DNA from: Embleya scabrispora DSM 41855
Lineage (GTDB): Bacteria; Actinomycetota; Actinomycetes; Streptomycetales; Streptomycetaceae
Direction of reading: 5' to 3'
Assembly: GCF_000372745.1 (NCBI RefSeq)
Contig: NZ_KB889562.1
Span: forward strand, 62,001 to 126,000
DNA: 64,000 bases
The notes below the pieces were generated by a model that ran no database searches, was not told the DNA's origin, and worked only from the letters and a program-made list of their open reading frames with translations. The position numbers and the translations under genes were made by a program. Numbering within the stretch: the stretch's first letter is position 1; each line of letters starts with the position of its first letter. Shown one piece after another: positions 5,026 through 62,159 of this stretch.

Positions 5026-7353
5026 CTACTCCGTGCGCAGCCCGTCCGGGCGCATCAGCCGCCACAGCGGCGGCAGGCTCAGCACCGTGACCAGCAGCAC
5101 CACACCCGCGGCGATCCCGCTCATCAAGGCCATGCCGCTCCAGTCCACGGCGAACGGCCGCGTCACCATTTTCAGCAGCGCGGCACCCAGCCCCACGCCC
5201 GTGACCGCCGCAAGCAGCAGTCCCAGCGCGACCGGAACCGCCGTCTGGCACAGGATCGACCAGCTCAGCGTGCTGCGCCTGGTGCCGAACGCCACCAGCA
5301 CCGACAACAACTTCCGCCGCTCGCGCAGTTGTTCCAGCATGGTCACCAACAAACTCGCGCCGATCAGCAGCAGCACCACGGCCGTGCCGATGAACAACGC
5401 CGTGCGCACGTTCGCGAAACGCCGCGATTCCCGGGTCCAGGACAGGTCGTTGACGGTGGACAGCGGGTCGACCCGGGCGGCGGTGTTACGGACCAGGTCC
5501 CGAGCATCCGGGACGGTCGGGTCGATCCGCACATGCAGCGAGTAGGTCAGGTTCCGGGTCGCCGCCGCCGGCACCGAGCCAGGCGTCGCCAGCACCCCGT
5601 CGTACAACATCCCGCTCGCGTCGACCCGACCCGGCACGGTCACCGCGGTCGCGGGAATCAGCCACGGTGTGCGGGACGCGGGCAGCCCCGTCATCCCATA
5701 GGACGGATCGATGACCACCTGCCGTCCGGCAGCGAGCTTCATCCCACCGACGATGCGGTCCGACGACCCGACCGGCTCGATGATGAAGGAGTCACCGTCC
5801 GCGCAGCGATCGATCCGAGCCAACTCGCGCAGTGTGTCGCACGTCCCGATGGTCAGCGACGCGCCCTCGGCGGGATTGTCGGCCCGGTCGCCGATCCGGG
5901 TGCCCGCGCGCCCGAAGGCGCTGCGAACCCCCTTGGTCTGCCGGATCCGGTCGGTGATCTCGGTGACCCGGTCACCGCCGAGCTGTCCGTTGGACGTCAC
6001 CGACATCTGCGCCCGGCCGGGATCCTGGCCGGTCTCTTTGACGTAGTCGTTCTCGATGCCCATGAAGAGCATCTGCAGGGCGATCGCACCGGCCACCGCG
6101 ACCGCGATGCCGTTGATCGAGCGGGCCGCCGAACCGCTGCCCAACTGGAGCCGGCGCACAGCGAGTTGCCACGGCACCCGGCCGCCGCCGAGCCGGGCCA
6201 CCACCGCCTCCACCAACCACGGCAACAACGCGGTCACGCCGAGGAGCAGGAACACCGTGCCACCGATCACCTGCCCCCGGTTGAACTCCCCGGCATCGGC
6301 ACCCCGACGGATCAACGGGAGGAGCAGGGCCACCCCCACGACCGGCAACAGCAGCCGCCACCACACCCGGCGCCGGGCCGGTGTACCGGTGCGCACCACG
6401 CCGAGCGGCTCGATCATCACCGAGCGCAGCGCGAACAGCGTCACCGCGACGGCGGCGGCCGGCACCGCGAGCGCCACCAGGACGACCGGCGGCAGACTCG
6501 GATCCAGATCGCTGGGGAAGATGCTCAGGTCGAACGCCGCCGCCACATCGGTCATTTGTCGGCCGATCAGGAAGAAGCCAAGCCCGAAGAGCAGCCCGAA
6601 CAACGATCCCGCGAGCGCCTCGCCGGCCGCGATCCATCGGGTGGTCCGGGCATCCGCACCGACCAGCCGCAGCGCCGCCAGCCGTCGGTCGCGCCGCTCG
6701 CCGCCGAATCGCACGGCCGTGGCGATCAGCACCGCAACCGGCATCAGCAGCACCACGAACATCACCACGACGAGCAGAAGCAGCCGGGGGTCCAGCTTTT
6801 CCGCGGGAAAGTCGTTGCCGAACGCGGTGATCCGGACCACCGAACTCGATTCCCCGGTGAGAGCTTCACTGCCGAGGTAGAAGGCCAGGTCGTCCGGCCC
6901 GATCAGGCCCCGTTCGGCGATCCGCCCGGCCGTGCGGTAGGGCAGCCGCTCCTTGAGCAGCGCACCCCGCTTCGAGGCGAGCAGGTCGGCCAGGGCTGGT
7001 GAGACCACCATCTCGCCCGGGGCCGGCAGCCGGCTCAGCCCCGGCGGGATCGGCGCCCGCGGGCCCTCGGCGCGCAGGGCCCGGCCGCGGATCTCGTCGC
7101 CCTTGTACGTGGTGTCGATCGTGCCGACCAGCAGGGTGTTCTCGGCGGCCTGCCGAACCCGCCCCGCCAGTTCGTCCCGGCCGCGCCCTCGGTCGTCGCG
7201 CGCGCCCAGCGCACCGGGTATCGCGGTGGTCAACAACAGCAGCGCCACGCCGAGGCCGACCCCGACCGCGGTCAGCAGCGTGCGGGTCCAACCCTCCCGG
7301 CCGCCGGTGACCGCGAAGCCGACGCCCATCCTCAGATCGCGGAACACGTTCAC
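5026..7353 (-). CDS. FtsX/MacB-type ABC transporter permease
   Basis: A 775-residue membrane protein with an N-terminal transmembrane segment (LLTAVGVGLGVALLLLTTAIPG, residues about 27-48), a long extracytoplasmic region, a first FtsX-like cluster of membrane helices around residues 240-400, a second extracytoplasmic region with a CDTLRELARIDRCADGDSF cysteine pair, and a C-terminal FtsX domain (FIGTAVVLLLIGASLLVTMLEQLRERRKLLSVLVAFGTRRSTL). This is the duplicated-FtsX layout of mechanotransmission-type ABC systems. The GTG start overlaps the ATPase stop as GTGA. Together with the ATPase and PadR genes it forms a three-gene operon. Likely role: export or membrane-stress response to lipophilic or peptide compounds; substrate unknown. 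Confidence 0.9.
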   Translation of the reverse strand: MNVFRDLRMGVGFAVTGGREGWTRTLLTAVGVGLGVALLLLTTAIPGALGARDDRGRGRDELAGRVRQAAENTLLVGTIDTTYKGDEIRGRALRAEGPRAPIPPGLSRLPAPGEMVVSPALADLLASKRGALLKERLPYRTAGRIAERGLIGPDDLAFYLGSEALTGESSSVVRITAFGNDFPAEKLDPRLLLLVVVMFVVLLMPVAVLIATAVRFGGERRDRRLAALRLVGADARTTRWIAAGEALAGSLFGLLFGLGFFLIGRQMTDVAAAFDLSIFPSDLDPSLPPVVLVALAVPAAAVAVTLFALRSVMIEPLGVVRTGTPARRRVWWRLLLPVVGVALLLPLIRRGADAGEFNRGQVIGGTVFLLLGVTALLPWLVEAVVARLGGGRVPWQLAVRRLQLGSGSAARSINGIAVAVAGAIALQMLFMGIENDYVKETGQDPGRAQMSVTSNGQLGGDRVTEITDRIRQTKGVRSAFGRAGTRIGDRADNPAEGASLTIGTCDTLRELARIDRCADGDSFIIEPVGSSDRIVGGMKLAAGRQVVIDPSYGMTGLPASRTPWLIPATAVTVPGRVDASGMLYDGVLATPGSVPAAATRNLTYSLHVRIDPTVPDARDLVRNTAARVDPLSTVNDLSWTRESRRFANVRTALFIGTAVVLLLIGASLLVTMLEQLRERRKLLSVLVAFGTRRSTLSWSILCQTAVPVALGLLLAAVTGVGLGAALLKMVTRPFAVDWSGMALMSGIAAGVVLLVTVLSLPPLWRLMRPDGLRTE

Positions 7354-8030
7354 GTGGCACGCGCCATGTCCCGGGACCTGCCGTCGCGGACGACGATCTC
7401 ACGGTCGGAGTAGGCGGCGATCCGGGATTCGTGGGTGACCAGCACGACCGCGGCCCTCGTATCACGGGCGGCCTCGATCAGCAGTTTCATGACGCGTTCC
7501 CCGTTGAGCGAGTCCAGCGCGCCGGTGGGCTCGTCGGCGAAGACCACACGGGGGCGAATCACCAGAGCCCGGGCCACCGCGATCCGCTGGCCCTGGCCGC
7601 CGGAGATCTCGCCGGGCCGTTTGCCCGCGAGGTCGGCGACCTCCAGTCGCTCCATCCACTCCCGCGCCTTCGTCTCGGCCTCCTTGCGCTTGACCGCGTT
7701 CAGCCGCAGCGGCAGCGCGACGTTCTCCAGGCAGGTCAGCTCGGGTACCAATTGGCCGAACTGGAAGACGAAGCCGAAGTCGCTCCGGCGCAGCGCGCTG
7801 CGTTGGGTGTCCGACATGGCGGTCAGGTCGCCGCCGTCGTAGCGGATGGTGCCGGAGTCGGGGCGGACGATGCCGGCCAGACAGTGCAACAGGGTGGACT
7901 TGCCCGACCCGGACGGGCCCATGATGGCGACGATCTCGCCGGCGCCGACGGTGAACTCGGCACCGGCCAGCGCAGGTGTCGCACCATACGTCTTGTGCAG
8001 CTCGTGGCCGCTGAGCAGGGTGTCGATCAC
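7350..8030 (-). CDS. ABC transporter ATP-binding protein (MacB/LolD type)
   Basis: A 226-residue nucleotide-binding subunit. It contains Walker A GPSGSGKST (about residue 37), a Q-loop in FVFQFGQLVPELT, the signature SGGQGQR, Walker B VVFADEPTGALD, and a switch histidine in VLVTHE. The FADEPTGALDS motif and compact size mark the MacB/LolD/FtsE group that pairs with FtsX-type permeases. The GTG start overlaps the padR stop (GTGA), and the stop overlaps the permease start in the same way, so all three genes are translationally linked. An upstream extension of the open frame to 8567 is only antisense coding of the regulator. Confidence 0.95.
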   Translation of the reverse strand: MIDTLLSGHELHKTYGATPALAGAEFTVGAGEIVAIMGPSGSGKSTLLHCLAGIVRPDSGTIRYDGGDLTAMSDTQRSALRRSDFGFVFQFGQLVPELTCLENVALPLRLNAVKRKEAETKAREWMERLEVADLAGKRPGEISGGQGQRIAVARALVIRPRVVFADEPTGALDSLNGERVMKLLIEAARDTRAAVVLVTHESRIAAYSDREIVVRDGRSRDMARAT

Positions 8031-8551
8031 GTGCGGATCTCCTGGGTGAGTTCGCTGAGACGGGCGGTGGTCAGTTCCAGCCACCGCAGATCCGCTTCGA
8101 GGTGGAACAGCGCGTGGTCGCAGATCAACCGGTCGCTGAGGTCGCCGTCGAGCTTTCGCCGGGTGAGGTCGCGCATCATGCGCAGGTGTTCGGCGCGTTG
8201 GGTGTCGAGGATCTCGTTCGCGTCCCGGCCGGTGAGCAGCGCGAGCACGACCTTGGTGTAGAGCGTCGACTGGAGGTAGGGCTCGGGTTTCTCGGGTTGG
8301 CCGAGCCACTGTTCGACATCGGTGACGCCGGCGTCGGTGATCGAGTAGCGCTTGCGTTCGGGGCCGCCGCTGGTCTCCAGGCCGTCTATCTCCACGAGCC
8401 CGTTCTTCAGCAACCGCGACATGGTCGAGTAGACCTGGCCGTAGGCGAGCGAACGGTCTCGGCCGAAGCGCTCGTCGAAGCTGCGCTTGAGGTCGTAGCC
8501 GTGGCGGGGGCCGGACTCCAGGAGCCCGAGCAGGGTGTGTCCGATTGACAT
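8027..8551 (-). CDS. PadR-family transcriptional regulator of the ABC operon
   Basis: A 174-residue PadR repressor: N-terminal winged helix MSIGHTLLGLLESGPRHGYDLKRSF, the wing region SRLLKNGLVEIDGLETSGGPERKRYSITDAG, and a C-terminal helical domain (Vir_C-like) used for dimerisation. The ATG at 8551 was preferred over an in-frame start at 8602 because PadR homology begins there. The upstream codons would also run through the operator palindrome. It is the first gene of the padR-ATPase-permease operon and faces a 32-bp dyad 8 nt before its start, so autorepression relieved by a ligand that the transporter exports is the natural model. Confidence 0.93.
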   Translation of the reverse strand: MSIGHTLLGLLESGPRHGYDLKRSFDERFGRDRSLAYGQVYSTMSRLLKNGLVEIDGLETSGGPERKRYSITDAGVTDVEQWLGQPEKPEPYLQSTLYTKVVLALLTGRDANEILDTQRAEHLRMMRDLTRRKLDGDLSDRLICDHALFHLEADLRWLELTTARLSELTQEIRT

Positions 8552-60012: not shown

Positions 60013-60579
60013 TCAGCCGGGCCAGTTCTCCAGCGCCACGTGCAGGGCCTCCACGGCCCGGTCGAAGGACTCGCTCGGCTTGCGCGCGTGGCCGAACCCG
60101 CCGTTGCCCTCGATCACCACGAAGCCGTGGAACGCACTGCGCAACAGCCGTCCCGCGTCGGTCAGGTCCGGCTCCTCCAGGCCGTAGGCACGCAGCATCG
60201 CGTAGGTGTTCTCGACATTGCGCCGGTGGCCCTCGGAGGTGGCCAACAGCGCCGGGTCGATCCGCGCCTGGGTCGCCGCATAACGGCCGGGACGCTCCAA
60301 CGCGAACTCCCGGTACGCCCGCGCGAAGGCGACGAGCGCGTCCTTGCCCGCCCGGCCCGCGACCGCCGCACCGAGGCGATCCGCCAGTTCGTCGGCGGCC
60401 AGCATCGCGATCCCGAGCCGCAGTTCCCGGAGGTTCTTCACGTGCGAGTACAGGCTCGCGTCCTTGACCCCGAAACCGCGCGCGAGCGCGGTCAGGGTGA
60501 TGTTCTCGAACCCCACCTCGTCCGCCAGATCCGCCGCCGCGCGAGTCACTCGTTCCGCCGTCAGTCCCGCCCGAGCCAC
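60013..60579 (-). CDS. TetR-family regulator, divergent from the FBP-domain gene
   Basis: A 188-residue TetR protein. Helix-turn-helix: TAERVTRAAADLADEVGFENITLTALARGFGVKDASLYSHVKNLRELRLGIAM. The rest is a compact ligand domain of the TetR_C_11/WHG kind. The GTG start has AAGGG 6 nt upstream. Two perfect dyads of CCTAG type lie between it and the FBP gene, centred 21 bp apart, so it probably controls both genes. Confidence 0.94.
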   Translation of the reverse strand: MARAGLTAERVTRAAADLADEVGFENITLTALARGFGVKDASLYSHVKNLRELRLGIAMLAADELADRLGAAVAGRAGKDALVAFARAYREFALERPGRYAATQARIDPALLATSEGHRRNVENTYAMLRAYGLEEPDLTDAGRLLRSAFHGFVVIEGNGGFGHARKPSESFDRAVEALHVALENWPG

Positions 60580-60625
60580 ACGTCACCCTTCCGTCGAGGC
60601 GCCGGTCACCGCGCCGTCCGCGCTT

Positions 60626-60640
60626 CCTAGAGCCTCTAGG
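60626..60640. promoter_or_regulatory. TetR operator, CCTAGAG dyad
   Basis: CCTAGAG-C-CTCTAGG, a perfect 15-bp inverted repeat centred two helical turns (21 bp) from the second dyad, so two dimers would bind the same face of the DNA. Confidence 0.75.
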
Positions 60641-60644
60641 TATT

Positions 60645-60663
60645 TGCCTAGGGTACCTAGGCA
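60645..60663. promoter_or_regulatory. TetR operator, TGCCTAGG dyad
   Basis: TGCCTAGG-GTA-CCTAGGCA, a perfect 19-bp inverted repeat. It ends 4 nt before the -10 box of the FBP-domain gene, covering the -35 region. Confidence 0.82.
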
Positions 60664-60667
60664 CTGT

Positions 60668-60673
60668 TAGTTT
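60668..60673 (+). promoter_or_regulatory. -10 box of the FBP-domain gene (probably leaderless)
   Basis: TAGTTT, 7 nt, ATG; no ribosome-binding site in front of the start. Confidence 0.5.
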
Positions 60674-60680
60674 CCGCCGC

Positions 60681-61175
60681 ATGAACCCACTCACCGAGCA
60701 GGACATCCGTACGTCGTTCGTCAACTGTTCCAAGGGTGCGGCCCAGCGCCTGCCCATGCCCCGTGACCTGGCCGAACGGCCGTGGGCCGACCTGGATTTC
60801 CTGGGTTGGGGCGATCCGGGGGCACCCGATCGCACCTATCTGGTCACCGAATACCTGGGTGACCTCGTCGGCATCGCCCTGCGCTTTCCCGCCCAGCAGC
60901 GAGGCTACCTGCACCGCAGCATGTGCTCGCTGTGCCTGACCACGCACCCGGGCCGCGGCGTCTCGCTGATGACCGCGCCCAAGACCGGCCGGGCCGGTCG
61001 GGACGGCAATTCGTTCGGCATGTACATCTGCACCGACCTCGCGTGCTCGCTGTACGTACGCGGCCTGAAGACCCCGGCTCCCGGCGGGCGCTTCGAGGAG
61101 TCGCTGCCCCTGGCCGAACAGATCGAGCGCACCCGGGCCAACCTGTCGGCGTTCCTGGCCAACGTCATCGAGTAG
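60681..61175 (+). CDS. FBP-domain protein (FusB/Far1-like EF-G-binding family)
   Basis: A 164-residue protein whose C-terminal two-thirds carry a treble-clef zinc finger: CSLC in SMCSLCLTTHPGRGVSLMTAPKTG and C-x4-C in YICTDLACSLYVRGLK. This is the FBP_C domain shared with staphylococcal FusB/Far1, which bind elongation factor G and free it from fusidic-acid-stalled ribosomes. The N-terminal helices (TEQDIRTSFVNCSKGAAQRLPMP) match the family start. Actinobacterial members are uncharacterised, so resistance is a hypothesis. TetR control through flanking dyads fits inducible ribosome protection. Confidence 0.88.
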   Translation: MNPLTEQDIRTSFVNCSKGAAQRLPMPRDLAERPWADLDFLGWGDPGAPDRTYLVTEYLGDLVGIALRFPAQQRGYLHRSMCSLCLTTHPGRGVSLMTAPKTGRAGRDGNSFGMYICTDLACSLYVRGLKTPAPGGRFEESLPLAEQIERTRANLSAFLANVIE

Positions 61176-61207
61176 ACAGCGGCCCCGCACCCGGGCCCAC
61201 CTCGTTG

Positions 61208-61235
61208 TTTCGGCCGGGCCCGGGCCCGGCCGAAA
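61208..61235. terminator. 28-bp perfect palindrome, terminator of the FBP gene
   Basis: TTTCGGCCGGGCCC and its exact complement are joined without a loop, 33 nt after the stop codon. As RNA it forms a GC-rich hairpin flanked by A and U runs. Confidence 0.7.
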
Positions 61236-61238
61236 CGG

Positions 61239-61270
61239 CTTGACCTCACGCGAGGTCAAGGTTGCAGGAT
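61239..61270 (+). promoter_or_regulatory. MerR-type promoter with 19-nt spacer and internal dyad
   Basis: TTGACC (61240-61245) and CAGGAT (61265-61270) are 19 nt apart. CTTGACCTC (61239-61247) and GAGGTCAAG (61252-61260) form a perfect 9-bp inverted repeat lying across the -35 box and spacer. An over-long spacer containing a dyad is the hallmark of MerR-family promoters (SoxR/BmrR/MerR). No merR gene is adjacent in the window. Confidence 0.75.
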
Positions 61271-61319: not shown

Positions 61320-62159
61320 ATGATTCTGGTGACCGGGGCAACCGGAAACGTCGGCCGGCAGGTGGTCGACCGGCTACTGGCCGCAGGAGTCGAGGTGCGG
61401 GCCCTGGCGCGTCGTCCCGAGGCGGCCGGGTTGCCCGCCGAGGTCGAGGTGGTGGGCGGCGACCTGGCCGAGCCGGACAGCCTCACGGCGGCTCTGACCG
61501 GGGTCGACGCGGTGTTCCTGGTCTGGCCCTTCCTCACCACCGAGGGCGCGCCCGGCGTGCTGGACGCGGTGACCGCGCACACCGGCCGCGTCGTCTACCT
61601 CTCCTCCTCTCGCGTGCGCGACGACGCCGACCGCCAGGCCGATCCGATCGGCGGACTGCACGCCGAGATGGAACGCGTGATCACGAAGTCGACCGCCGCG
61701 TGGACCTTCCTCCGGGCGGACACCATCGCGAGCAACGCCCTCGGATGGGCCGGGCAGATCCGTGCCTCGGGCGTCGTCCGCGGCCCGGATCTGCCTGCCA
61801 AACCGGTCGTGCACGAACGCGACGTCGCCGCCTCGGCGGTCCGCGTGCTCACCGAGGACGGCCACGCGGGCGTCGGCTACGTGCTGACCGGCCCCGAGGT
61901 GGTGAGCCGAGCCGACCAGGTCGCGCTGATCGGCGCCGCGATCGACCGCCCGCTGCGCTTCGAGCCGATCCCGCCGGCCGCCGCGAGGGCGCAGATGCTC
62001 GCCGACGGCCGCCCGCCGGCCCTCGTCGACGCGCTCCTCGCCGGCGCCGACACGCCCCCCGAACCGCCGCTGATCACCACCACGGTCCGGGACCTGACCG
62101 GCACCCCGGCCCGCACCTTCGAGGACTGGGCGCGGGACCACCGCTCCGACTTCGCCTGA
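61320..62159 (+). CDS. NmrA-like NAD(P)-binding oxidoreductase (atypical SDR)
   Basis: A 279-residue Rossmann protein: MILVTGATGNVGRQVVDRLLAAGVEVRALARRPEAAG (GxxGxxG), VVGGDLAEPDSL, VVYLSSS, and the later RPVVHERDVAASAVRVL. This is the NmrA/quinone-oxidoreductase-2 type of atypical SDR, used in redox sensing or ketone/quinone reduction. GAGGGA lies about 7 nt before ATG 61320; an upstream TTG (61314) is less likely. Its promoter has MerR-type architecture, which suggests induction by an oxidant or drug. Confidence 0.92.
   Translation: MILVTGATGNVGRQVVDRLLAAGVEVRALARRPEAAGLPAEVEVVGGDLAEPDSLTAALTGVDAVFLVWPFLTTEGAPGVLDAVTAHTGRVVYLSSSRVRDDADRQADPIGGLHAEMERVITKSTAAWTFLRADTIASNALGWAGQIRASGVVRGPDLPAKPVVHERDVAASAVRVLTEDGHAGVGYVLTGPEVVSRADQVALIGAAIDRPLRFEPIPPAAARAQMLADGRPPALVDALLAGADTPPEPPLITTTVRDLTGTPARTFEDWARDHRSDFA

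Follow-up and report, generated by a model that had tools for sequence, protein, structure and literature searches.

A FusB-related zinc-domain gene under a predicted TetR switch in Embleya scabrispora and its actinomycete relatives

Is a distant actinomycete relative of the staphylococcal fusidic acid resistance protein FusB held in check by a ligand-responsive repressor, and could it act at the ribosome as FusB does? The question is raised by a divergent gene pair in a 64,000-nucleotide stretch of the Embleya scabrispora DSM 41855 genome (the window), which forms part of contig C2 of the assembly. An FBP_C gene on the forward strand (60681..61175; 164 aa, 88% identical to the E. hyalina protein) is separated by a 101-bp intergenic stretch from a TetR repressor gene of the WHG/TetR_C_33 type on the reverse strand (60013..60579, start at 60579; 188 aa). 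Pfam matches to both products bear out the divergent arrangement described in the original prediction, which had read the pair as a drug-inducible locus for protection of EF-G. The other neighbours of FBP in the window are NmrA and DUF1697 genes, neither of which belongs to a resistance family in Pfam.

The FBP protein matches the Pfam family FBP_C (PF16571, E 9e-63) over the whole profile (1-155/155), corresponding to residues 8-162 of 164, and its score of 210.8 bits lies above the gathering cut-off of 27.2 bits. Because a phmmer search of PDB with the single protein returned no match, a family profile was required; the best five PDB matches of a profile built from 42 relatives were FusB and FusC chains (E 0.003-0.012). 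HHalign against five FusB-family proteins gave 98.3%, 2e-14, with FBP residues 1-120 aligned to FusB 86-192. NCBIfam contained no match for FBP. Judged by these comparisons, FBP is a homologue of the C-terminal treble-clef domain of FusB. The predicted zinc ligands C82, C85, C117 and C122 are invariant in 42/42 relatives, as is Y115, the equivalent of FusB Tyr187, with a spacing of CX2C-X31-CX4C in FBP versus CX2C-X28-CX5C in the FusB sequence (the FusB paper prints X23). Other positions have changed: FusB Phe156 corresponds to M81 in the HHalign alignment, the position of Lys184, which we take to be an EF-G contact in FusB, is occupied by Phe, and the five Lys at 99-105 in the rRNA-binding loop of FusB compare with two basic residues in the FBP counterpart. 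An AlphaFold model computed from an alignment of 19 close relatives (pLDDT 40) was too poor for use.

FusB itself contains both EF-G-binding_N and FBP_C in a profile scan. Cryo-EM work describes its N domain as a wedge inserted between domains I and V of EF-G, pushing EF-G apart, and its C domain as pairing with EF-G domain IV while anchored to the small subunit; the C domain also binds the 70S decoding centre without EF-G, and F156 and Y187 serve both ribosome and EF-G contacts (PMC12008383). A Pfam scan of the window FBP found no EF-G-binding_N wedge domain (PF07299). The same domain was found in 0/197 actinobacterial genomes, with or without FBP_C and with the E. scabrispora genome included, whereas a Lactococcus control was positive. 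FBP_C scored above its cut-off in 26/296 genomes of a phylum sample and in 47/61 relatives. A second FBP_C match in the E. scabrispora genome (C64:2978-3088) was rejected as chance, since it reached 24 bits, below the 27.2 cut-off, and the ORFs there are not FBP-like; no viral relatives of FBP were confirmed, and phage records yielded none. By domain content, FBP is by definition not FusB-type, because the N-terminal EF-G-binding domain is absent. The proposed FusB/Far1 fold is supported for the C-terminal domain but not for the N-terminal one, and protection of EF-G stays a prediction, with the wedge missing and, of the two FusB residues that EF-G binding requires, Tyr187 kept and Phe156 replaced by Met. 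With FBP_C, Y115 and M81 set against the absent N domain, FBP retains in altered form the fold through which FusB contacts the ribosome and EF-G, and lacks the element that forces EF-G open. The family does seem uncharacterised in actinomycetes, as had been claimed: the literature searched, mostly outside subscription journals, contained no mention of 'FBP domain-containing', and no title among the matches listed concerned actinobacterial FBP proteins.

The neighbouring regulator matches TetR_C_33/WHG in Pfam (PF13305, E 1e-24) and 1zk8 in PDB (E 1e-23), and its TetR_N score of 22.6 bits falls slightly below the 24-bit cut-off. Two perfect dyads lie between the genes, the distal operator CCTA-GAGCCTC-TAGG (CCTAGAGCCTCTAGG, 60626..60640), whose core is kept in relatives, and the proximal operator TGCCTA-GGGTACC-TAGGCA (TGCCTAGGGTACCTAGGCA, 60645..60663). 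They share one geometry, CCTA-N7-TAGG, and with centres at 60633 and 60654 they are 21 bp apart, just as first described. No other perfect palindrome in the 64 kb contains CCTAG with an arm of at least 7 and a loop of at most 3, and when the intergenic stretch was shuffled 20,000 times, two palindromes of such size appeared in 0.01% of the shuffles. A pattern scan reports the proximal operator alone, at chance level.

On the FBP side, the predicted promoter consists of a -35 box, TTGCCT (60644..60649, forward strand), immediately downstream of the distal operator, and a -10 box, TAGTTT (60668..60673, forward strand), which ends 7 nt 5′ of the ATG. The proximal operator overlies the -35 box and the greater part of the spacer, a position from which TetR should repress FBP. 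A scan for E. coli-type sigma-70 promoters (TTGACA/TATAAT) found none in the region upstream of the window FBP gene. The same two boxes, TTGCCT-N17/18-TAnnnT, recur in 30/33 FBP loci in which a TetR gene of this clade is adjacent, versus 5/77 other FBP genes. In 30/33 of these TetR-adjacent loci the gap between the predicted -10 box and the start codon is 6-8 nt, and a Shine-Dalgarno-like motif is absent from 31/33. Transcription from S. coelicolor WblC promoters starts mostly 7-8 bp 3′ of the -10 box (PMC7157823), and this spacing suggests that the FBP mRNA is leaderless.

Relatives were compared as 110 distinct FBP genes, a set from which the two window copies (L001, L002) and matches shorter than about 120 residues (for example the fragments in L091 and L103) were omitted, and in which identical protein-plus-upstream entries were merged; L066 and L074 were found via TetR similarity and the others via FBP searches. 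Gene starts were set from the match, so FBP lengths in this set are uninformative on N-terminal extensions. A TetR of the same clade adjoins FBP in 33/110. The operator core lies within 120 bp in 32/33 of these loci versus 17/77 other FBP genes (Fisher p 3e-14, with kinship ignored; since related loci are not independent, Fisher values overstate certainty). The sole TetR-adjacent locus without a core comes from Rhodococcoides, where the genes are tandem, not divergent. On a deep FBP branch (35% identity) TetR and operator are both kept.

Spacing is conserved as well. Among the 49 FBP promoters with a core, ten have a second near-core (at most one mismatch) 16-30 bp away, and in 10/10 of these the distance is exactly 21 bp, a spacing of the kind required to place a pair of dimers on the same side of the helix; the three Embleya and several of the Streptomyces promoters among the ten are close kin. 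Among the 23 core-bearing TetR promoters without FBP, a second core lies at 21 bp in one case and at 20 and 29 bp in another; at one orphan TetR promoter (L059) two cores are 20, not 21, bp apart. Searches for the exact pattern TGCCTA-N7-TAGGCA found it in 29/53 genomes and not in 24. Of 29 exact-pattern loci fetched, 28 adjoin a TetR of the clade and 14 a full FBP gene, and a reversed control pattern gave 12 matches versus 32 for the true one. Taken together, the TetR C-terminal domain, the divergent gene, the dyad in the promoter and its retention in relatives would place the window locus among those governed by a TetR repressor and a local operator. The 'inducible-looking' character assigned to it is, at the level of comparative data on TetR and operator, strongly supported.

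A second kind of control is apparent in other relatives. Intrinsic resistance to drugs that act on translation is under the control of WblC, whose promoters follow the consensus GAAAWY-N3-TKGMNN-N16..19-TANNNT (PMC7157823). At least 12/13 consensus positions were matched by 28/110 FBP promoters versus 2/325 promoters taken from non-FBP genes of the same loci, a comparison that is approximate because the control genes were called by rule with uncurated starts, and in which the threshold of 12 was picked after the scores had been seen (at 11, 41/110 versus 3/325). Thirteen of the 28 belong to one Streptomyces clade that carries the TetR core as well, 8 to a clade that includes Nocardia loci and two Rhodococcus loci, and only 1 is TetR-adjacent; both the WblC-type promoter and the TetR/core arrangement recur in separate clades of the FBP tree. 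The window promoter matches the consensus at 7/13 positions, which places it outside the WblC group, and a WblC-driven window promoter was rejected on this count. The published WblC regulon is a 312-gene list, in which the name fusB (SCO6589) is used differently, for an EF-G paralogue. In the Streptomyces loci L011-L016 a full WblC-type promoter lies 5′ of FBP, with a CCTA-N7-TAGG core downstream of the promoter. No TetR of the same clade was found within the 8-kb loci, and from their sequences these FBP genes are apparently under dual control that includes a distant repressor.

The TetR clade also has a partner enzyme. We counted 67 distinct TetRs, after L001, L002, L026, L196 and L198 had been dropped as redundant or off-topic; 36 adjoin FBP, 28 are followed directly downstream by an SGNH hydrolase gene (2/67 had too little downstream DNA for a judgement), and 11 combine the two, arranged as FBP, TetR, hydrolase. 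Among the 17 TetR-hydrolase loci without FBP, 10 came from the operator search only, which means that the operators they carry add no independent support, and the 7 found via TetR similarity carry the operator core. The hydrolase belongs to the SsfX3_N and GDSL families (4/4 scanned), its nearest solved relative is SsfX3 (PDB 3skv, E 5e-30), and no evident signal peptide was seen when the sequences were inspected by eye. The window TetR has no hydrolase neighbour. Elsewhere in the E. scabrispora genome, on C1 (L111:4028-5212), one hydrolase gene follows another TetR gene, whose product is 54% identical to the window TetR and whose operator (TGCCTAATCTGTTTAGGCA) is at C1:243315. As this and the window operator are the only two exact sites in the genome, the window FBP and C1 hydrolase promoters may answer to the same repressors.

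Some FBP genes lie in or near biosynthetic or regulatory clusters. On the S. globosus plasmid NZ_CP030864 (L198:13487-38618), FBP overlaps the last gene of an NRPS cluster by 4 bp, and the cluster includes an MFS transporter. Overlap with a biosynthetic cluster gene is an arrangement known for self-resistance genes, and we regard this FBP copy as a candidate of that kind from its position. In S. atratus NZ_CP108284 (L203:5085-7912) a hydrolase-TetR-FBP module lies near a type I PKS gene; its FBP frame is truncated, has an amidase tail and looks decayed. The Streptomyces plasmid NZ_CP108735 (L199:2056-3526) carries a second FBP gene adjoining two RNHCP-domain genes, and on two further Streptomyces plasmids (L201 and L204, about 7001-8100) FBP lies beside a flavoprotein gene in ScbR/SARP arrays.

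Downstream of the window FBP gene is a perfect palindrome (GTTTCGGCCGGGCCCGGGCCCGGCCGAAAC, 61207..61236). It had been put at 28 bp and called a terminator; it is 30 bp long, and a terminator role is plausible from the sequence. A 95-nt stretch containing the palindrome and a second hairpin has a folding energy of -55.9 kcal/mol (z -4.7). No U-run accompanies the palindrome, which would make it a candidate U-less terminator, and the pattern scan did not list it. Its sequence is not common to the two Embleya relatives compared, and as a conserved part of the locus it was rejected. A further dyad, CTTGACCTC-ACGC-GAGGTCAAG at 61239-61260, lies directly 5′ of the NmrA/SDR gene (61320-62159). We take this dyad to be MerR-like, and it may be a regulator site of that gene rather than part of the FBP locus.

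What, then, is the locus for? The reading we favour, and consider reasonably probable, is that of a TetR-repressed, ligand-inducible translation-stress gene whose product binds at the ribosome/EF-G face and blunts a translation inhibitor. TetR dimers would occupy both CCTA-N7-TAGG sites, side by side along the same face of the DNA, the dimer at the proximal site covering the -35 box and spacer and so blocking FBP transcription, as the conserved anatomy implies. TetR would be released by a small molecule, in all likelihood a natural product that inhibits translation, and the predicted leaderless FBP mRNA would then be made. The 18-kDa zinc protein would act like the C-terminal half of FusB, using its fold, zinc site and Tyr to bind the decoding-site/EF-G domain IV surface, and could let ribosomes escape or tolerate a translocation-blocking drug. 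In some related genomes the SGNH hydrolase under the same TetR would probably cut an ester on the same or a related drug. The translation-stress role is drawn from the enrichment of WblC promoters and the pairing with SGNH hydrolase under the same TetR clade.

How closely the protein could follow FusB depends on the wedge, and the missing domain makes the exact FusB action less likely. True FusB-type protection, in which FBP would bind EF-G domain IV and free fusidic-acid-locked EF-G, with fusidic acid or a fusidane as inducer, seems to us unlikely. The C domain homology speaks for it, as the C domain of FusB carries the primary EF-G site (PMC4725979); so do the kept Y187 equivalent and the parallel between the esterase partner and the Streptomyces fusidic-acid esterase FusH (PMC12493156). 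It is countered by the absence of the wedge from all 197 genomes, by the replacement of F156, and by the contrast between extracellular FusH and a partner without evident signal peptide.

Two other readings remove the drug or the ribosomal target. FBP might be a ribosome-associated maintenance or hibernation-like factor rather than a drug gene, with a TetR that senses a metabolite, for instance a fatty acid, a flavonoid or a signalling butyrolactone. TetR ligands are diverse, 77/110 FBP genes have no such TetR adjoining, NmrA and DUF1697 lie outside the resistance families, and the two plasmid copies in butyrolactone-regulator arrays fit as well; the WblC-type promoters, the NRPS-cluster copy and the hydrolase pairing nonetheless point to drugs, and we hold this reading quite improbable. 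Nucleic acids are common binding partners of treble clefs and were bound by FusB during its purification (PMC3352095), observations that would suit a zinc protein which binds nucleic acids and plays no part at EF-G or the A site. Since the rRNA- and EF-G-touching segments of FusB are among the conserved segments of FBP, we think this very unlikely.

A wider scheme can be offered as a tentative and rather doubtful proposal. In a conserved, two-pronged actinomycete module switched by TetR, a wedge-less FusB would shield the A site/EF-G while a cytosolic SGNH esterase destroyed the inducer, an ester-bearing translocation inhibitor of which fungal fusidanes are an example; the Embleya halves would have come apart yet kept a common operator type. 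Staphylococcal FusB, with its two domains, would descend from, or be a cousin of, an older ribosome-protection family of soil bacteria that has a single domain. Were this true, one drug could switch on both Embleya halves through the common operator type. A 2025 review calls the regulation of FusB homologues unknown (PMC12493156). What is new here is a precise conserved operator for a distant FusB relative, a named partner enzyme, and a testable rule for many actinomycete FBP genes (63/110), whose wiring involves this TetR or the operator, a WblC-type promoter, or both; the other 47/110 show none of TetR, core and WblC match. The predicted leaderless start, the SGNH hydrolase as partner and the WblC-type promoters seen in relatives go beyond the original prediction. 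Should FBP protect ribosomes although it lacks the EF-G wedge, it would reveal the action of the FusB C-terminal domain alone and hint at the origin of clinical target-protection genes.

Among known systems, FusB/Far1 and FusC of Staphylococcus are similar in being small proteins with a C-terminal FBP_C treble clef, four zinc cysteines and GW, Arg and GxYxC motifs, and FusB expression is also held back until needed. They differ in having EF-G-binding_N, a slightly different zinc spacing and F156; FusB control is by translational attenuation, compared with the predicted TetR operator at FBP, and FusB is a fusidic-acid-resistance protein, whereas FBP is known here from sequence alone. FusH, the extracellular fusidic-acid esterase of Streptomyces (PMC12493156), offers ester-cleaving resistance in the same host group, but it is secreted, and its likeness to the SGNH partner is drawn from descriptions. 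In S. coelicolor the FusH copy is SCO6108, a gene close to rokB that may belong to a RokB regulon (PMC4856308). The SGNH partner shares the SsfX3_N and GDSL domains of SsfX3, whereas its gene follows a TetR with the shared operator type, beside FBP in 11/28 cases. SsfX3 itself we take to be a GDSL acyltransferase of SF2575 biosynthesis. Finally, the FBP family would resemble the WblC/WhiB7 regulon in its translation-stress logic, with 28/110 FBP promoters fitting the consensus, and the window promoter differs in that it does not fit and carries a TetR dyad at the position expected of the WblC box.
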